From Caryophanales bacterium UBA970 (GTDB taxonomy: Bacteria > Bacillota_I > Bacilli_A > RFN20 > CAG-826), in the NCBI GenBank assembly GCA_002292805.1, contig DBCA01000099.1:1-11608 (forward strand): a stretch of 11,608 nt of DNA, written 5' to 3'. Below, piece after piece: positions 5,521-11,608 of this stretch. The notes under the pieces are model-generated. The model was not told where the DNA came from. It made no database searches and was given only the letters and a program-made list of their open reading frames with translations. Both the position numbers and the translations under genes were made by a program. Each line of letters starts with the position of its first letter. The first letter of the stretch is position 1.

Positions 5521-6930
5521 ATGCCAGAATTACCAGAAGTAGAAACTGTTGTCAGAACCTTAAGGACAATCCTGATTGGATCGACCATTGAATCGATGAC
5601 ATTTCGTTATACAAAAATGATTCATCCATCCCCATCCATCTTTGAACAAAAACTCAAAGGACAAACCTTTACAAACATCGAACGCATTGGTAAATTCATT
5701 ATCTTCTTCTTTTCCAATCAATCGGTGGTGGTCTCCCATTTACGAATGGAAGGTAAGTTCATTGAACTTAAAAATCCCCTGGATCCATTGACTCGATTTG
5801 CCCATCTTATTTTTCAATTAAAAGATGGAAGAAGACTGGTCTATGATGACATGCGTAAATTTGGCACGTTCACCCTAGCAACTGCCAAAACATATCTAGA
5901 TTTACCATCATTAAAAAACTTAGGCAAAGAACCATTAACAACGTTAGATCCTTTACCAATCTTGACTAAATTCAATGCTTCTCGTCGTCCGATTAAAAGT
6001 ATCCTTCTTGATCAAACCATTCTTTTAGGTCTAGGTAATATCTATGCGGATGAAGTCCTTTATGCATCAAAGATTCACCCTCTTAAAAAAGGAACTCAAT
6101 TGACCTTAGAAGAAACCAAATCGATTTTGCTTCACAGTGAAAAAATCTTGAAGGCTGCGATTGCGTCTGGTGGAAGTCGGATTCGCTCTTATCGATCAGG
6201 TAGTCCCATTGATGGCGAATTCACCTTAAACATTCAAGCCTATGGTCGCGAGGGTGAACCTTGCCATCGCTGCCACCATCGTCTTGATAAAATCACTGTG
6301 GCTGGACGGGGAACTCATTACTGTCCACGTTGCCAACATCATCCCGATTTACCCTTTGTCATAGGTGTCACGGGTACCATTGCCACTGGAAAATCAACCT
6401 TGGTCAGTGTCGGTGCATCGCTAGGTTTTCACTTCATCGATGCCGATCAAATCGTTCACCGTGTGTATCAAACCAAACCAGCCATCTCATTTATCAAAAG
6501 CTTATTTCCCTTTGCTGTGATTGATAAAAAGACTGACCGTCGCCAATTATTAAAAGCGATGATTGAGCAGCCAAAGGGTTATCAAAAATTAATTCAATGG
6601 TTATTTCCTCTGGTTAAATCGATCATCCTTCATGAGCTGATGAAAACAAAATCCAAGGCGGTAATGCTTGAAGTGCCTTTGTTATTTCAAGGTCATCTTG
6701 ATGCTTACTGTGATGTGATCATTGGGGTGGACATGGACGCATCGAAACAAAAACGTCGATTGCAACAACGGGTTGGTGAACTGGCTGAACTATTATGGAT
6801 TTTAAATGAGCGAAATCATTATCATGACTTTCAATCTTATCTTGATGTTCGTCTTACCAATGACGGTAGCTTAGCAACTTGGCAACAACAAGCAAAGCAA
6901 GCCTTATCACCTTTTATAAAATATTTATAG
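5521..6930 (+). CDS. mutM-coaE: Fused formamidopyrimidine-DNA glycosylase (MutM/Fpg) - dephospho-CoA kinase (CoaE)
   Basis: One uninterrupted 469-codon frame encodes two enzymes normally made separately. MutM (1-272) excises oxidised purines such as 8-oxoG and cuts the abasic strand. It begins MPELPEVETV (catalytic P2, E3), and has K58 in the RIGKF motif, M76, DDMRKFG (R112, F114), the H2TH segment LGLGNIYADE (169-178) and an intact zinc finger (C248, C251, C268, C271) with AGRGTHYCPRCQ (261-272). After a linker of about six residues, CoaE (about 279-469) phosphorylates dephospho-CoA, the last step of CoA synthesis: P-loop GVTGTIATGKST (282-293), FIDADQIVHR (305-314), EVPLLFQ (384-390) and TNDGSL (446-451). 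There is no start codon at the junction, so CoaE is not independently initiated there. mutM and coaE are near neighbours after polA in Bacillus, so the fusion joins existing neighbours. The CoaE lid region (about 415-440) is divergent. The 3' end overlaps the end of dnaI on the other strand. Confidence 0.94.
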   Translation: MPELPEVETVVRTLRTILIGSTIESMTFRYTKMIHPSPSIFEQKLKGQTFTNIERIGKFIIFFFSNQSVVVSHLRMEGKFIELKNPLDPLTRFAHLIFQLKDGRRLVYDDMRKFGTFTLATAKTYLDLPSLKNLGKEPLTTLDPLPILTKFNASRRPIKSILLDQTILLGLGNIYADEVLYASKIHPLKKGTQLTLEETKSILLHSEKILKAAIASGGSRIRSYRSGSPIDGEFTLNIQAYGREGEPCHRCHHRLDKITVAGRGTHYCPRCQHHPDLPFVIGVTGTIATGKSTLVSVGASLGFHFIDADQIVHRVYQTKPAISFIKSLFPFAVIDKKTDRRQLLKAMIEQPKGYQKLIQWLFPLVKSIILHELMKTKSKAVMLEVPLLFQGHLDAYCDVIIGVDMDASKQKRRLQQRVGELAELLWILNERNHYHDFQSYLDVRLTNDGSLATWQQQAKQALSPFIKYL

Positions 6931-7821
6931 CGGCATCATCGCGGGAAAATAAATCGGTTTGGTTAATAACTTGACAAGATTTAACCATTCCGTCATGAGC
7001 ATGCGTTTATCTTTATAACCTTTAAACAATCCATCCAATTGAGCAATCTCAACTGTGCTTGTCACCATGGTGATTAACGTAGGTTTTTGTCTAGCAAGAA
7101 AAACCGGAATTAGAAAGTCAGTCAACATGTCCTCGGTGATGGGATGACTACCTAGGCCATCAAGGATCATGATGGAGAGATTTTGTAGACGTTCTAATTC
7201 ACGTTGAAAGGCAGTTGAATCAGACCGTTTTAGATTGGTTAATCTTGAAGATTGCGAGGCAAAATCAAGAACTCCAATCGTTCCCAATTCATTCAATGCA
7301 TATCGATAAGCAAAGATGCCTAACCCATACGATTTCCCAGATTGATGTGGACCAATGAGGGCAAGGCCATCTTTGGTTTGTTTTTGCAAAACTTTCATGA
7401 GGTAAACATAAAGCGATTTTTGCCCTTCACGTTGTTTTAGAGATTCAAATAATTTCGAATCTTTCCAAAGAGAATTAAAGTCATCATAGATCAAATATTG
7501 CGAAACTTTTAATTGGTCTGCAAGCATCGGGCAAGGTTGAAATTGCCGCTCAAGATGACCCACGGCATTACGTTGAACTTGCAACACATAGTGGCCTTGT
7601 GGTTTTAAACATTGACCTGCCAATTGACATTGATGAACCGCTTGTTCATCTTCTTCAAGTTTAATAAACGTCGCTAAATGTTCCCTAATTTCATGTTCTT
7701 TTAATTGCAAACGCTTGATGGTCTTTGCCATCAAAGGTGAAGCTTTTAACGTTTGAAGTGCTTGTTCAATGGCATCTTCAAAGTCATCATCGATGAGTGC
7801 TTTGGGATTTATTGGTTTCAT
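6925..7821 (-). CDS. dnaI: Primosomal protein DnaI (AAA+ helicase loader), ATPase motifs partly degenerate
   Basis: Homologue of Bacillus DnaI, which works with DnaB to load the replicative helicase (DnaC in Bacillus) onto DNA. 298 aa against about 310 in Bacillus. The N-terminal domain carries candidate zinc ligands C65, C71, H77 or H89, and C97 (QPCPM), matching the zinc-binding N-terminal region of DnaI. The C-terminal AAA+ domain has Walker A GPHQSGKS (157-164) and a Walker B strand LSIMILDG (215-222) in which the second acidic residue, expected in LDDIG, is Gly222. The sensor 1 segment reads VTST (253-256) rather than TSN, and the C-terminal region after KDKRM (270-274) lacks the usual MERI and NRR arginines. 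The start is set by the ATGA overlap with dnaB plus a good Shine-Dalgarno (GAAGGG, 6-nt spacing). The family call rests on domain order and the dnaB neighbour; ATP hydrolysis is uncertain. Confidence 0.9.
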   Translation of the reverse strand: MKPINPKALIDDDFEDAIEQALQTLKASPLMAKTIKRLQLKEHEIREHLATFIKLEEDEQAVHQCQLAGQCLKPQGHYVLQVQRNAVGHLERQFQPCPMLADQLKVSQYLIYDDFNSLWKDSKLFESLKQREGQKSLYVYLMKVLQKQTKDGLALIGPHQSGKSYGLGIFAYRYALNELGTIGVLDFASQSSRLTNLKRSDSTAFQRELERLQNLSIMILDGLGSHPITEDMLTDFLIPVFLARQKPTLITMVTSTVEIAQLDGLFKGYKDKRMLMTEWLNLVKLLTKPIYFPAMMPL

Positions 7822-9077
7822 TTTAAACCCTTCATGTTGGACTCTAATGTATCCAATTCTTGATCATCAACTTGTTCATTTTCTTTCGGTAATGGAGAGG
7901 AAATAACATCGGCAATCGGGGTGACTTCTTCTTTTTTTCCAGGATACGTTTTTGCAGTTCTTGGTTGGTTGATTTGATAAAAATAATCCATGGTGTCAAC
8001 CGCATGTTGAAGATTTTCTCGTTTGACACTTCCCGCTAGTTTTTCTACATAGCGAGAACTAAGGACATTATTTTGAGTCGTGAGAACATGGTGGATCAAG
8101 GCATTAATGACAGGATTTGGTAAAGCATATTGGGTTTGTAAGCGTAACAGCAAACTAAAATCTGCAGGAGAAACTTCTGCACCTTGTTGTTTCATGCTTA
8201 AGAAAGCCATTGGGGTTAACATTTCCATTTGATTAATGGCGATCGTTTGCGATGAGGTTTCTTGCAATTGTACTTTTTGTTGTTGCCGTTGTCTGACGAA
8301 AGGTAAACGCTTTTCTTGGCGAGCGGCCTGCATGACTTTATCCATGAGTAGACGGTGATTCATATCAAGATTGGTACCGACGATGTCTGCCGCTGCAAGT
8401 TCATCAAGACCCGTGAGGGTAGCGATGGCAATGATTTGCGTCATATCATCGGCGTTTAATTTTTTGATGTCGATTGAAAACTGTGCTTTTAATTGTTCTG
8501 CAAATCGTATTGAATCAAAAGGTTGACGAATTTCTGCTAATGATTTGCCTTTGTATTGAGGATTGGATTGGTTCATAAACGCTGGGTGATTTAAATCGGG
8601 GTGAAAGACTTCACCAAAGGAAACGGATACTTCTTTTGCTTGAGGGTCGATGGAGGGCAAGACATATTTAGTTGATAAACGTTGGAGATAAGTTGATCCA
8701 GCTCGTTGAATTAATAACCCCTTCAGGATTGGGTCATCCATGAATGCTTGTGGGTTTTTTGGTGTGTATAAAGAGAAGGTAAATTGTTGAGTTTTTTGGG
8801 AGGTTTGTTGATACGTTCTAAGTAAACCGACGGCTTCTAAATAAAGTCTAGCTTGATGAAATGCTTGCGGGGTGGTTTGTAAATACGTTAACTCTGTGGC
8901 CAAATCAATAAAATTTCCTTCTAATAAAGCGTCTTGTTGTTTTAATCCCAAATACAAACCCACCGCATCGGTGCCAACAATGGGTCCGTAGAATTCTACT
9001 AAAAACTCTACATCCAATGAGGATATGGTGCTTTCAAGCCGAATTTGAATGAAATCTTGGGTGTTAATGATTTTCAT
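7818..9077 (-). CDS. dnaB: Replication initiation and membrane attachment protein DnaB (DnaD/DnaB family)
   Basis: Bacillus-type DnaB (not the E. coli helicase of the same name), which takes part with DnaD, PriA or DnaA and DnaI in loading the replicative helicase at oriC and at restarted forks. 419 aa; Bacillus DnaB is about 470. The N-terminal part (about 1-120) is the winged-helix-like domain: DVEFLVEFYGPIVG (22-35) and a helical stretch around 60-90 match the family opening, where replicase interaction modules sit. The second DnaD-like domain (about 286-370) shows LTPMAFLSMKQQG (287-299), YALPNPVINALIHHVL (317-332) and YVEKLAGSV (343-351), corresponding to the YxxxIxxxW DNA-binding motif but with Val in place of the final Trp. 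The tail 375-419 is charged and probably disordered. It overlaps dnaI by 4 nt (ATGA), so the two are co-translated. No Shine-Dalgarno precedes the start; see the promoter entry. Confidence 0.9.
   Translation of the reverse strand: MKIINTQDFIQIRLESTISSLDVEFLVEFYGPIVGTDAVGLYLGLKQQDALLEGNFIDLATELTYLQTTPQAFHQARLYLEAVGLLRTYQQTSQKTQQFTFSLYTPKNPQAFMDDPILKGLLIQRAGSTYLQRLSTKYVLPSIDPQAKEVSVSFGEVFHPDLNHPAFMNQSNPQYKGKSLAEIRQPFDSIRFAEQLKAQFSIDIKKLNADDMTQIIAIATLTGLDELAAADIVGTNLDMNHRLLMDKVMQAARQEKRLPFVRQRQQQKVQLQETSSQTIAINQMEMLTPMAFLSMKQQGAEVSPADFSLLLRLQTQYALPNPVINALIHHVLTTQNNVLSSRYVEKLAGSVKRENLQHAVDTMDYFYQINQPRTAKTYPGKKEEVTPIADVISSPLPKENEQVDDQELDTLESNMKGLK
7828..7833 (-). promoter_or_regulatory. Ribosome binding site of dnaI
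   Basis: On the minus strand this reads GAAGGG, 6 nt before the dnaI ATG and inside the last codons of dnaB. It supports the chosen start and the overlap. It is the clearest Shine-Dalgarno in the window; most other starts rely on stop/start coupling. Confidence 0.7.
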
Positions 9078-9200: not shown

Positions 9201-10013
9201 ATGACCCACTTAATGTTCGATGGTTATGGCGTAAAAGCAACGATTCCACTTGGGGATAGTAACTTTATCAATCAAACCATTAATTTAGTGCTTTTTGATT
9301 TAAAAATTAAACCAATTTCTCCTGCATACTTATTACCCTATGATTATGGTTTAGTTCCGCTTGATGAAGGATTATCAAGTTATATATTTTTAGACGGTGG
9401 CCACTTAACCATTCACACGTTCCCGTTACGGGGTTGCTACTTTGTTGACTTAAGTACACAAGTTAATATTGATCCAAAGTTATTCCAAAAGGTTTTACAA
9501 CGTTACTGGCCAAGCGCGATGGAAAAAAGTCGATTATTTTCAGCAGATCGAAATGGTCTTAACCAATCTGAACCGTTTGATCCAAAATCTGTATTTGGAC
9601 CGCACGTCATGGCAACGATTCAATTAAAATCTCCCATTAACCTCGAAACCTCAAACCGTTTTTTAGAAGGTTTAATTCAAGATATTGGTATGACGCCCAT
9701 TACGAGAGCTTTTGGGTTATACAATCAATATCACAACTCAACTTTTTTATCGAGCATTGTGATGATCGCTGAATCGCACTTATCCATCCATGTAAACTTA
9801 AAGCAGAACGTGATGTACTTTGATATTTTTTCTTGCAAAATGTTTGACTATGCAAGTGTTCAAGGATTACTTGAAAATATGGGAAAAGTGAAAAGTTGGC
9901 ACGTCGTTCCGCGCGGTGAAAAACACGATCCACGCTCTACGAATAGACAAGCTAAGACGTCGATGAGTTCTAAAGCAAAGCAAGCCTTAAATTGGTGGAA
10001 AGATACCAAATGA
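9201..10013 (+). CDS. Tandem-domain SpeD-family pyruvoyl decarboxylase homologue (AdoMet decarboxylase-like)
   Basis: 270 aa, about twice a bacterial SpeD (roughly 120-140 aa), and it reads as two SpeD domains in tandem. N-half (about 1-105): THLMFDGYG opening, then GGHLTIHTFP (66-75) and YFVDLST (80-86). The processing Glu-Ser pair is D65-G66-G67 and the catalytic Cys position is Q87. C-half (about 130-235): AESHLSIH (190-197) and FDIFSC (207-212), giving the self-cleavage pair E191/S192 (pyruvoyl from S192), H197 and C212. S184, eight residues before S192, matches the processing serine. The two halves align without gaps from S192/G67 to D208/D83. So self-cleavage in the C-half is likely, but residues that hold AdoMet in known SpeDs (Phe, and Trp/Glu of HTWPE) are H178, N199 and K201. 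The substrate is therefore uncertain: AdoMet, or an amino acid as in neofunctionalised SpeDs. A basic tail follows (237-270). The start is the first ATG after an in-frame TGA. The stop overlaps the pfkA start. Confidence 0.82.
   Translation: MTHLMFDGYGVKATIPLGDSNFINQTINLVLFDLKIKPISPAYLLPYDYGLVPLDEGLSSYIFLDGGHLTIHTFPLRGCYFVDLSTQVNIDPKLFQKVLQRYWPSAMEKSRLFSADRNGLNQSEPFDPKSVFGPHVMATIQLKSPINLETSNRFLEGLIQDIGMTPITRAFGLYNQYHNSTFLSSIVMIAESHLSIHVNLKQNVMYFDIFSCKMFDYASVQGLLENMGKVKSWHVVPRGEKHDPRSTNRQAKTSMSSKAKQALNWWKDTK
9994..10002 (+). promoter_or_regulatory. Ribosome binding site that sets the pfkA start
   Basis: GGTGGAAAG lies within the 3' end of the speD-like gene, 7 nt before the ATG at 10010. It supports the ATG start (protein opening MKSLNIGVLTSGGD) over the in-frame TTG at 9992, which would add six residues and place the start on top of this site. 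Confidence 0.6.
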
Positions 10014-10972
10014 AATCCTTAAATATTGGAGTGCTTACTTCTGGTGGTGACTCACCTGGAATGAATGCTGCTATTCGAGCAATCATTCGTGCTGGCATTA
10101 GTCATGGCCATCAAATGTATGCCATTTATAATGGGTATCGCGGATTAGTCTCGGGGCAAATCGAAAAAGTAGATCGCTCTTTTGTTTCGCAAATCATTAA
10201 TAAGGGTGGAACCATACTTCGTTCTGCTCGCCTTCCAGAATTTATCGATGCCAATATTCGCGAAGAAGGCGTTAAGCAACTTAAAAAATTCGGAACTAAT
10301 GCTTTGGTCGTCATTGGTGGAGATGGTACGTACCGTGGTGCAAAAGATTTATCAGATATGGGAATCAACTGTATTGGTTTACCTGGCACAATTGATAATG
10401 ATATTGCATGCACCGATTACACCATTGGATTTGATACATGTCTCAATACGATTGTTACGGCTGTCGATAAACTGCGAGATACGACCTTCTCACATCAACG
10501 CTGCTCCATTATAGAAGTCATGGGTAATCGCGCAGGAGATTTGGCGATTTATGCAGGCTTGGCATGTGGCGCAGAATTAACCATTTCCGGTGATAATTTT
10601 ATGCCGTTACAAGAAATGATTGAACGTTTAAAATTTCAAAAAGCTACCAGTAAAAACCACGCAATGGTGATTGTTTCTGAAAAATTATTTGATCTTCAAG
10701 AACTTGCTCGTTTTATTCAACAAGAAACCGGTTTTGAAGTGAGAACGGAAGTTTTAGGACGCATACAACGAGGTGGTTCTCCTTCTGCTTTTGATCGCAT
10801 TCTTGCCTCACGGATGGGCGAATACGCCGTGCAATGTTTAAATGAAGGGAAGACCAGTCGCTGTATTGGAGTCCGCGGCCAACAACTTGTGGATTTTGAT
10901 ATTTACGAAGCACTTGCCATGCAACGAGCAAAGCATACTAGCATCGTAAATGTGATTGATCGGTTGAAATAA
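10010..10972 (+). CDS. pfkA: ATP-dependent 6-phosphofructokinase
   Basis: Converts fructose 6-phosphate and ATP to fructose 1,6-bisphosphate, the committed step of glycolysis; cytosolic tetramer in this family. 320 aa, the usual length. ATP site: TSGGDSPGMNA (10-20) and GGDGTYRGA (103-111). Catalytic loop: PGTIDND (125-131; D129 equals E. coli D127). F6P and effector residues largely kept: HQR (R164), R245, E224, and allosteric R23, R27, R56, R156 and E189. Two positions differ: the MGR motif reads M171-G172-N173-R174, and LGH before QRGG reads LGR (R251). Both are active-site positions in E. coli PfkA (R171, H249). The start is the ATG overlapping the preceding stop (ATGA), backed by a ribosome binding site. 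It is followed after 1 nt by pyk, the classic pfkA-pyk pair. Regulation by ADP/PEP is plausible from the retained effector arginines. Confidence 0.96.
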   Translation: MKSLNIGVLTSGGDSPGMNAAIRAIIRAGISHGHQMYAIYNGYRGLVSGQIEKVDRSFVSQIINKGGTILRSARLPEFIDANIREEGVKQLKKFGTNALVVIGGDGTYRGAKDLSDMGINCIGLPGTIDNDIACTDYTIGFDTCLNTIVTAVDKLRDTTFSHQRCSIIEVMGNRAGDLAIYAGLACGAELTISGDNFMPLQEMIERLKFQKATSKNHAMVIVSEKLFDLQELARFIQQETGFEVRTEVLGRIQRGGSPSAFDRILASRMGEYAVQCLNEGKTSRCIGVRGQQLVDFDIYEALAMQRAKHTSIVNVIDRLK

Positions 10973-10973
10973 C

Positions 10974-11608
10974 ATGATGTATCGATTTGATAAAAAGACG
11001 AAAATTGTTGCGACGATAGGCCCCGCATCAGAAACCTATGAAAAACTTTTAGAGTTGGTAGATGCTGGCATGAATGTCATGCGGGTCAACTTTTCCCATG
11101 GAGACTATCCAACTCATCTAAAGAAAATTGAAATGGCTCGTCGCTTAGAAAAAGAAAAAGGCATTTTTATTCCTGTGATGCTGGATTCACGTGGTCCAGA
11201 AATACGCGTGGGCATGTTTGAAAATGATTCAGCCTTGATAAAACAAGATAGTGTTGTACGTGTCAGTATGAAACCATTATTAGGTAATGCGGAAATTTTT
11301 TCCGTTTCCTATGCCGATTTATATGAGGATGTTAAGGTTGGCGATCAATTGAGAATTGATGATGGTAATTTAGCACTCTTAATCGTTGAAAAAGATCGCA
11401 TTAACCACCAACTTGTATGTAAAGCATTGAATACGCATACCATTAAAAATCGCAAAGGATTAAATGCACCTTTTGCTCGATTATCCATGCCGTTTATTTC
11501 TGCCCAAGATGAAGCAGATTTTAAATTTGGATGTGAACACGACGTGAACTATATTGCAGCAAGTTTTACAAGAAGAAAACAAGATGTTTTGGATATTCGA
11601 GCCATTTT
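10974..11608 (+). CDS. pyk: Pyruvate kinase (3'-partial)
   Basis: Transfers phosphate from PEP to ADP, giving pyruvate and ATP. The frame is open to the right edge; 211 complete codons are visible, which is less than half of a typical 470-590 aa enzyme. Motifs: KTKIVATIGPAS (8-19), MNVMRVNFSHGD (33-44) with catalytic R37 and potassium ligands N39 and S41, then LDSRGPEIRVG (70-80), where the usual LDTKGPEIR has Ser and Arg for Thr and Lys; E76 is the residue typical of potassium-dependent enzymes. The B domain follows (about 81-167), with IDDG (128-131) at its middle, and the barrel resumes at about 168 through AASFTRRKQDV (195-205). The catalytic KIE motif lies beyond the window. Two adjacent ATGs (10974, 10977) are possible starts; the first leaves a 1-nt gap to pfkA. 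No strong ribosome binding site is seen, consistent with coupling. Confidence 0.95.
   Translation, partial: MMYRFDKKTKIVATIGPASETYEKLLELVDAGMNVMRVNFSHGDYPTHLKKIEMARRLEKEKGIFIPVMLDSRGPEIRVGMFENDSALIKQDSVVRVSMKPLLGNAEIFSVSYADLYEDVKVGDQLRIDDGNLALLIVEKDRINHQLVCKALNTHTIKNRKGLNAPFARLSMPFISAQDEADFKFGCEHDVNYIAASFTRRKQDVLDIRAI

Follow-up and report, generated by a model that had tools for sequence, protein, structure and literature searches.

A fused SpeD-family protein with a predicted cleavage site in its C-terminal half only, proposed as a pyruvoyl-dependent arginine decarboxylase

The SpeD fold normally works as a pair, and a gene on contig DBCA01000099.1 of Caryophanales bacterium UBA970 (assembly GCA_002292805.1) raises the question of how such a pair might work, and on what substrate, when both partners lie in one chain and one of them lacks the site of self-cleavage. 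(The contig was analyzed from position 1 to position 11,608, and this whole stretch of 11,608 nucleotides is referred to here as the window.) The gene occupies positions 9201–10013 on the forward strand (+), as stated in an initial annotation made from the sequence, and is an open reading frame (ORF) of 270 aa. We consider it likely that its product is a single-chain pseudo-dimer of two SpeD domains that would cleave itself before S192, would share one active site across the domain interface, and would most likely act on L-arginine. The designation of the protein as a fused SpeD-family proenzyme and proposed pyruvoyl-dependent arginine decarboxylase draws on the ORF, its matches to PF02675, its relatives, and an AF2 model together with the fold matches of that model. 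What the initial annotation had observed, two SpeD domains of which one is dead, largely holds; its interpretation, a duplication independent of the eukaryotic one, is partly supported.

The presence of two SpeD domains was borne out by profile and fold comparisons. The N-terminal domain (residues 1–128; 9201–9584, +) is without a cleavage site and the C-terminal domain (residues 129–248; 9585–9944, +) is the predicted catalytic half. Each half alone passed the PF02675 (AdoMet_dc) cut-off of 25 bits, the N-half (119 aa) with 30.7 bits and the C-half (144 aa) with 33.5 bits, and the whole protein scored 60.2 bits. Scored against a profile built from 25 SpeDs of one domain each, the halves reached 44.4 bits (N-half) and 63.5 bits (C-half), compared with best scores of 2.3 and 5.5 bits, respectively, among 500 shuffled sequences per half. 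Moreover, the profiles of the two halves matched each other (probability 96.5, E 1e-9). An AF2 model of the full chain, built with 82 sequences, had a pLDDT of 90.6 and a pTM of 0.90. Its best fold matches were the human S68A proenzyme of S-adenosylmethionine (AdoMet) decarboxylase (AdoMetDC), over model residues 1–240, and Thermotoga maritima SpeD, over residues 1–120, a span that includes the residues (1–105) for which the initial annotation had asked whether a SpeD fold would be predicted. Identity in the structural match with human AdoMetDC is about 10%, and a fold that the model shares with AdoMetDC is no proof of function.

Relatives were collected by a protein search and by a genome scan. 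The search gave 58 matches, one of them the protein of the window itself; every match carries PF02675, and three are short (165–199 aa). From the scan, 80 of 138 confirmed loci were kept. A full fused ORF (261–292 aa) was present in 67 of these 80 loci (numbered with L below); the other 13 hold relatives with one SpeD domain, apart from L070, which has a fusion of another kind. Residue counts were taken from an alignment of 68 rows, namely the 67 loci and P0001. In this alignment the cleavage-type serine is found in the C-half only: S192 is invariant (68/68) and forms with E191 (9771–9776, +) the predicted self-cleavage pair, S192 giving rise to the putative pyruvoyl group, whereas the N-half position is glycine in every row (G66-G67, 9396–9401, +; G67 in 68/68, G66 in 64/68), which argues, as far as sequence goes, that there is no live N-terminal AdoMetDC domain. 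C212 (9834–9836, +), the counterpart of T. maritima Cys83, is likewise invariant, as are H193 and H197 (9789–9791, +), the second conserved histidine of the C-half; at the N-half position of the catalytic cysteine stands Q87 (9459–9461, +), where the family has D in 42 rows, Q in 8, C in 1 and a mixture in the rest. All of these residues are as the initial annotation gave them, with the qualification that only the serine of the E191-S192 pair is fixed in the family (residue 191 is Q in 44 rows and E in 24).

That annotation also took the N-half to have lost its catalytic residues, which is true of the cleavage pair and the cysteine but not of H72 (9414–9416, +), the N-half counterpart of H197, or of S59 (9375–9377, +), both of which are present in 68/68 rows. 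By spacing, H72 and S59 are the counterparts of T. maritima His68 and Ser55; S59 lies eight residues ahead of the cleavage-site position, matching the interval from Ser55 to Ser63. The residues of the N-half that are invariant are D55, G57, S59, H68, T70, I71, H72, T73, F74 and P75, the TFP that follows the histidine is kept in the N-half and not in the C-half, and substitution rates indicate closely similar constraint on the two halves. We take T. maritima His68 to be the equivalent of human His243, and human residues 229 and 243 to lie in the uncut half. As described in the available text of PMC3975893, processing of human AdoMetDC at Ser68 needs Ser229 and His243, T. maritima Ser55 is analogous to human Ser229, and T. 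maritima Glu62 has a possible general-base role. Because S59 and H72 match human Ser229 and His243, both needed for processing at Ser68, the N-half, judged from the alignment, retains the residues that a partner lends and has lost those that the cut half needs. Two points weigh against so clean a division. The S55A mutant of T. maritima is still activated according to the same text (PMC3975893), so that the argument from S59 loses strength, and the C-half has not given up its own histidine, H197, so that the split of residues is incomplete. A further point against our reading as a whole is that at a position four residues past the histidine, where single-domain relatives keep Glu, E is found in 3/68 N-halves and 14/68 C-halves.

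In the mechanism that we propose, the chain would fold like the eukaryotic AdoMetDC proenzyme and would cut itself before S192 into chains of 21.56 and 9.20 kDa, the smaller one starting with the pyruvoyl group. One active site would be formed at the interface (as alignment and literature suggest), with the pyruvoyl group and C212 supplied by the C-half, and the N-half, itself unable to self-cut, would provide H72, S59 and the HTFP and D-x-G-x-S stretches. The protein would convert L-arginine to agmatine as the first step towards putrescine. In the window's lineage AguA and AguB would then take agmatine through N-carbamoylputrescine to putrescine, and in many Bacilli relatives putrescine would be made from agmatine by agmatinase, the gene for which lies directly upstream.

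Evidence on the substrate comes from neighboring genes and from genome content. An agmatinase-family gene (PF00491) lies directly upstream of the fused gene in 23/67 loci and aguA lies upstream in 15/67. In L006 and L027 the agmatinase-family gene sits between dnaB and speD; in the window, L001–L005 and L007 there is only a gap of about 60–235 bases between these two genes, and the genomes of L001–L005 and L007 carry AguA elsewhere, with AguB following AguA in both of those looked at (G002 and G007). For all five neighboring PF00491 proteins compared, agmatinase fitted better than arginase, three scoring over the agmatinase cut-off and none over that for arginase. Whole-genome searches were made in the genomes of 32 of the 67 loci (numbered with G), and these hold PF00491 in 16 cases and AguA (PF04371) in 13, never both; thus 29 of the 32 have exactly one of the two (Fisher p 3e-6 for exclusion). 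Spermidine synthase (SpeE, PF01564) was matched in 14 of the 32, seven times over the cut-off. The match was strong only in G009 (196 bits) and G028 (140 bits), and reached at most 28.8 bits in the other 12 (five of which exceed the Pfam cut-off). In 31 of the 32 genomes the fused protein was the only SpeD found; the exception, G009, has a second one about 0.5 kb from its SpeE.

Turning to other decarboxylase families, PF01862 had no match in the 32 genomes, PF01276 was found in 10 (none of G001–G008) and PF02784 in 18 (none of G001–G005). Because the PF02784 family also holds LysA, its matches were not counted for or against the presence of another arginine or ornithine decarboxylase. In the window's closest relatives aguA is present and no other arginine decarboxylase was found, and the fused protein is the only first-step candidate found in G001–G005. 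Given the scarcity of strong SpeE matches, the agmatinase-family and aguA genes upstream, and this lack of another arginine decarboxylase in close relatives, we think it improbable that the fused protein decarboxylates AdoMet.

A number of observations weigh against arginine as the substrate. The genomes searched are metagenome-assembled genomes (MAGs) of untold completeness. G028 has SpeE and no second SpeD; G027, G031 and G032 have neither AguA nor PF00491. Two of the five agmatinases fell below the agmatinase cut-off, as did the clostridial AguA tested (L031) with respect to its equivalog cut-off. Neither aguA nor an agmatinase gene was found in the locus DNA examined for 28/67 loci; among clostridial-type loci 22 lack an agmatine user in the locus DNA, and three of these, searched genome-wide, also had none. 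Finally, a wider control of 147 genomes in the order of G002 held the fused gene in 9 (the match in G254 being weaker and partial), AguA in 67 and PF00491 in 39. AguA or PF00491 was present in 8/9 genomes with the fused gene and 97/138 without it, which is no enrichment (Fisher p 0.45), and the near-exclusion of AguA and PF00491 is general in that order, with 1 of the 147 genomes having both. We had entertained co-occurrence as proof of the substrate and dropped it in view of this control. We therefore base the case for arginine on the genes adjacent to the fused gene and on finding no other arginine decarboxylase.

Four other readings were weighed against arginine decarboxylation. A fused protein that is a genuine AdoMet decarboxylase, with its product taken by an unrecognised aminopropyltransferase, would agree with membership of the PF02675 family, with the best NCBIfam model being TIGR03330 (bona fide bacterial SpeD), with the human AdoMetDC fold match and with the HTFP found in the N-half of all 68 rows; in addition P75, also invariant, could be the proline said to mark true AdoMetDCs, a further point against arginine. 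We nevertheless regard this reading as unlikely: the TIGR03330 score of 48 bits is below the equivalog cut-off of 75.65, strong SpeE matches are confined to two of the 32 genomes, one of which (G009) has another SpeD near its SpeE, and the positions of T. maritima Phe49 and Glu72, which we take to be adenine-stacking and ribose-binding, respectively, vary in both halves (here P53/H178 and L76/K201). A pyruvoyl ornithine decarboxylase akin to SpeDC, with an arginase as its PF00491 neighbor, would suit the arginase-fold neighbor seen in 23/67 loci. We think this reading quite unlikely, since AguA-AguB of the window's lineage requires agmatine, the neighbor is closer to agmatinase in 5/5 cases, and the nearest assayed single-domain relatives are, in the available text of PMC10407285, arginine decarboxylases. 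(The diagnostic residues of SpeDC given there are Gln, Thr, Phe and Tyr; Q191, found in 44/68 rows, might be that Gln.)

The 22 clostridial-type loci without aguA or agmatinase in the locus DNA, together with a ParA-like gene upstream in 38/38 loci of this type, would suit a decarboxylase with a different substrate, at any rate in the clostridial branch, whose fused genes stand behind conserved genes of unknown function. However, aguA is upstream in 15 of the 38 and an agmatinase-family gene in one (L030), and we judge this reading to be very unlikely. Loss of the cleavage site from half of the chain might be expected of a non-catalytic pseudoenzyme that regulates another decarboxylase, like the trypanosome prozyme, a reading made highly improbable by the invariance of S192, H197 and C212 and by the finding that 31/32 genomes have no other SpeD to regulate.

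Whether the two halves of the proposed arginine decarboxylase arose by duplication, as the initial annotation held, was addressed with a tree in which the separate halves of 23 fused proteins were placed together with 26 single-domain rows (136 columns; the fusions published in PMC10407285 were left out). N-halves and C-halves each form one side of a branch. The N-halves group with singles of Desulfacinum/Woesearchaeota type (90/96) and the C-halves with singles of the Vampirovibrionales second-SpeD type and others (94/98), both supports being below the tool's own mark; these low supports and the long stem branches of the two groupings (2.2 and 3.1) count against our main reading. A single clade of N- and C-halves cost 7.4 log units (p-AU 0.203) and is thus neither shown nor rejected. 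Duplication is therefore not shown, since the tree places the halves beside different single-domain groups, yet the AU test allows one clade. In a sample of 198 genomes from the phylum of Desulfacinum no frame had two PF02675 matches; eight frames of 256–440 aa had a single match and could include fusions with a degraded half. We put forward only tentatively the idea that an asymmetric one-site SpeD chain, mirroring the eukaryotic one, originated separately from two different subfamilies of arginine-decarboxylase type rather than by gene copying, its N-half surviving only by lending interface residues.

Several known systems resemble the fused family in part. SpeD-derived pyruvoyl arginine decarboxylases (SpeDA), described in the available text of PMC10407285 from V. 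chlorellavorus (SpeD2) and Woesearchaeota, belong to the same family and have the pyruvoyl motif, and singles from Vampirovibrionales and a Woesearchaeota MAG are among the nearest tree rows. SpeDA has speB or aguA-aguB among its neighbors or in its genome (PMC10407285), a trait that the fused family shares but that is also seen in the 97 control genomes mentioned above. SpeDA proteins are single domains, expected to be homodimers, whereas the fused family has one chain, one inferred site and a dead N-half, and is found in Bacillota. The same text reports SpeD-SpeDC fusions from Desulfotignum, Omnitrophica and Lentisphaerota (three tested, of 271, 278 and 318 aa), some with two live sites and others with a degraded C-half, the authors proposing the latter as a model of eukaryotic AdoMetDC (PMC10407285). 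These also have two SpeD domains per chain, one of them degraded in some cases, but their N-half is an AdoMet decarboxylase encoded beside speE and their C-half either decarboxylates ornithine or is degraded; in the fused family degradation has affected the N-half, and strong SpeE matches are rare. Eukaryotic class 2 AdoMetDC (human, plant) is likewise a fused pseudo-dimer with one active site; it is larger and AdoMet-specific and, as the initial annotation pointed out, has its pyruvoyl serine in the opposite half, the N-half. In the Trypanosoma brucei AdoMetDC/prozyme pair a live partner also needs a dead one, but there, according to the available text of PMC5201418, the two are separate chains, each a fused class 2 protein, and the role is allosteric. 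No SpeD fusion from Bacillota was found in the open-licence literature (supplements of PMC10407285 and subscription papers lay outside the search), and Firmicutes, Bacillota, Bacilli and Clostridia have no occurrence in the main text of PMC10407285. Compared with the published bacterial SpeD fusions, the reversed order with the dead half in front, the lineage and the likely substrate are new.

The fused family occurs mainly in MAGs of Bacilli and Clostridia: 65 of the 67 loci are labeled Bacillota or Mycoplasmatota, the exceptions being L026 (Gammaproteobacteria) and L049 (Cloacimonadota). A further unexpected label is that of L002, Staphylococcus epidermidis, for a genome of about 0.9 million bases. 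Because the fused protein and its neighbors in these three resemble those of other Bacillota loci, the genomes are likely mislabeled or mixed bins. The different fusion of L070 (6558–8420, +; Bacterium HR23) is a 620-aa ORF with a SpeD domain at residues 483–594 only, the approximately 480 residues ahead being without a Pfam match. In the clostridial-type loci (L030–L066 and L068) the ParA-like ATPase gene (~300 aa) is on the same strand as speD (e.g. L030:2782–7992). The gene adjoining speD encodes 230–867 aa, and in 31/38 loci a gene of about 480–860 aa lies ahead of the ATPase gene; for each of these two, the one protein tested had no Pfam match. In the 15 loci of this type that have aguA, it is located further upstream. 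With PADLOC, two of three clostridial neighbors gave 0 matches and the ParA-like one only a weak match (E 0.0014 at best); a model of clostridial operon protein C was weak (pLDDT 75.2, pTM 0.48).

In the window, the fused speD starts 123 bases from a divergent dnaB-type replication initiation gene (7818–9077, −; PF07261), and its stop codon overlaps the ATG of pfkA (phosphofructokinase; 10010–10972, +; PF00365, 1.2e-102) in the ATGA at 10010–10013. Beside dnaB, in the position of dnaI, is a 298-aa ORF (6925–7821, −) without a Pfam match at 1e-3, and a further ORF (5521–6930, +) combines formamidopyrimidine-DNA glycosylase with dephospho-CoA kinase (PF01149, PF06831, PF06827, PF01121).

How a symmetric homodimer with two sites becomes an asymmetric chain with one is a question raised by eukaryotic AdoMetDC. 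The fused family is a natural replicate of that change in which the other half is the dead one, and dozens of its sequences are at hand for comparing the residues kept by each half. Our findings also suggest that the label S-adenosylmethionine decarboxylase may be wrong for these genes of Bacilli and Clostridia, and make the fused protein a candidate to fill the first step towards putrescine that is missing in small-genome bacteria.
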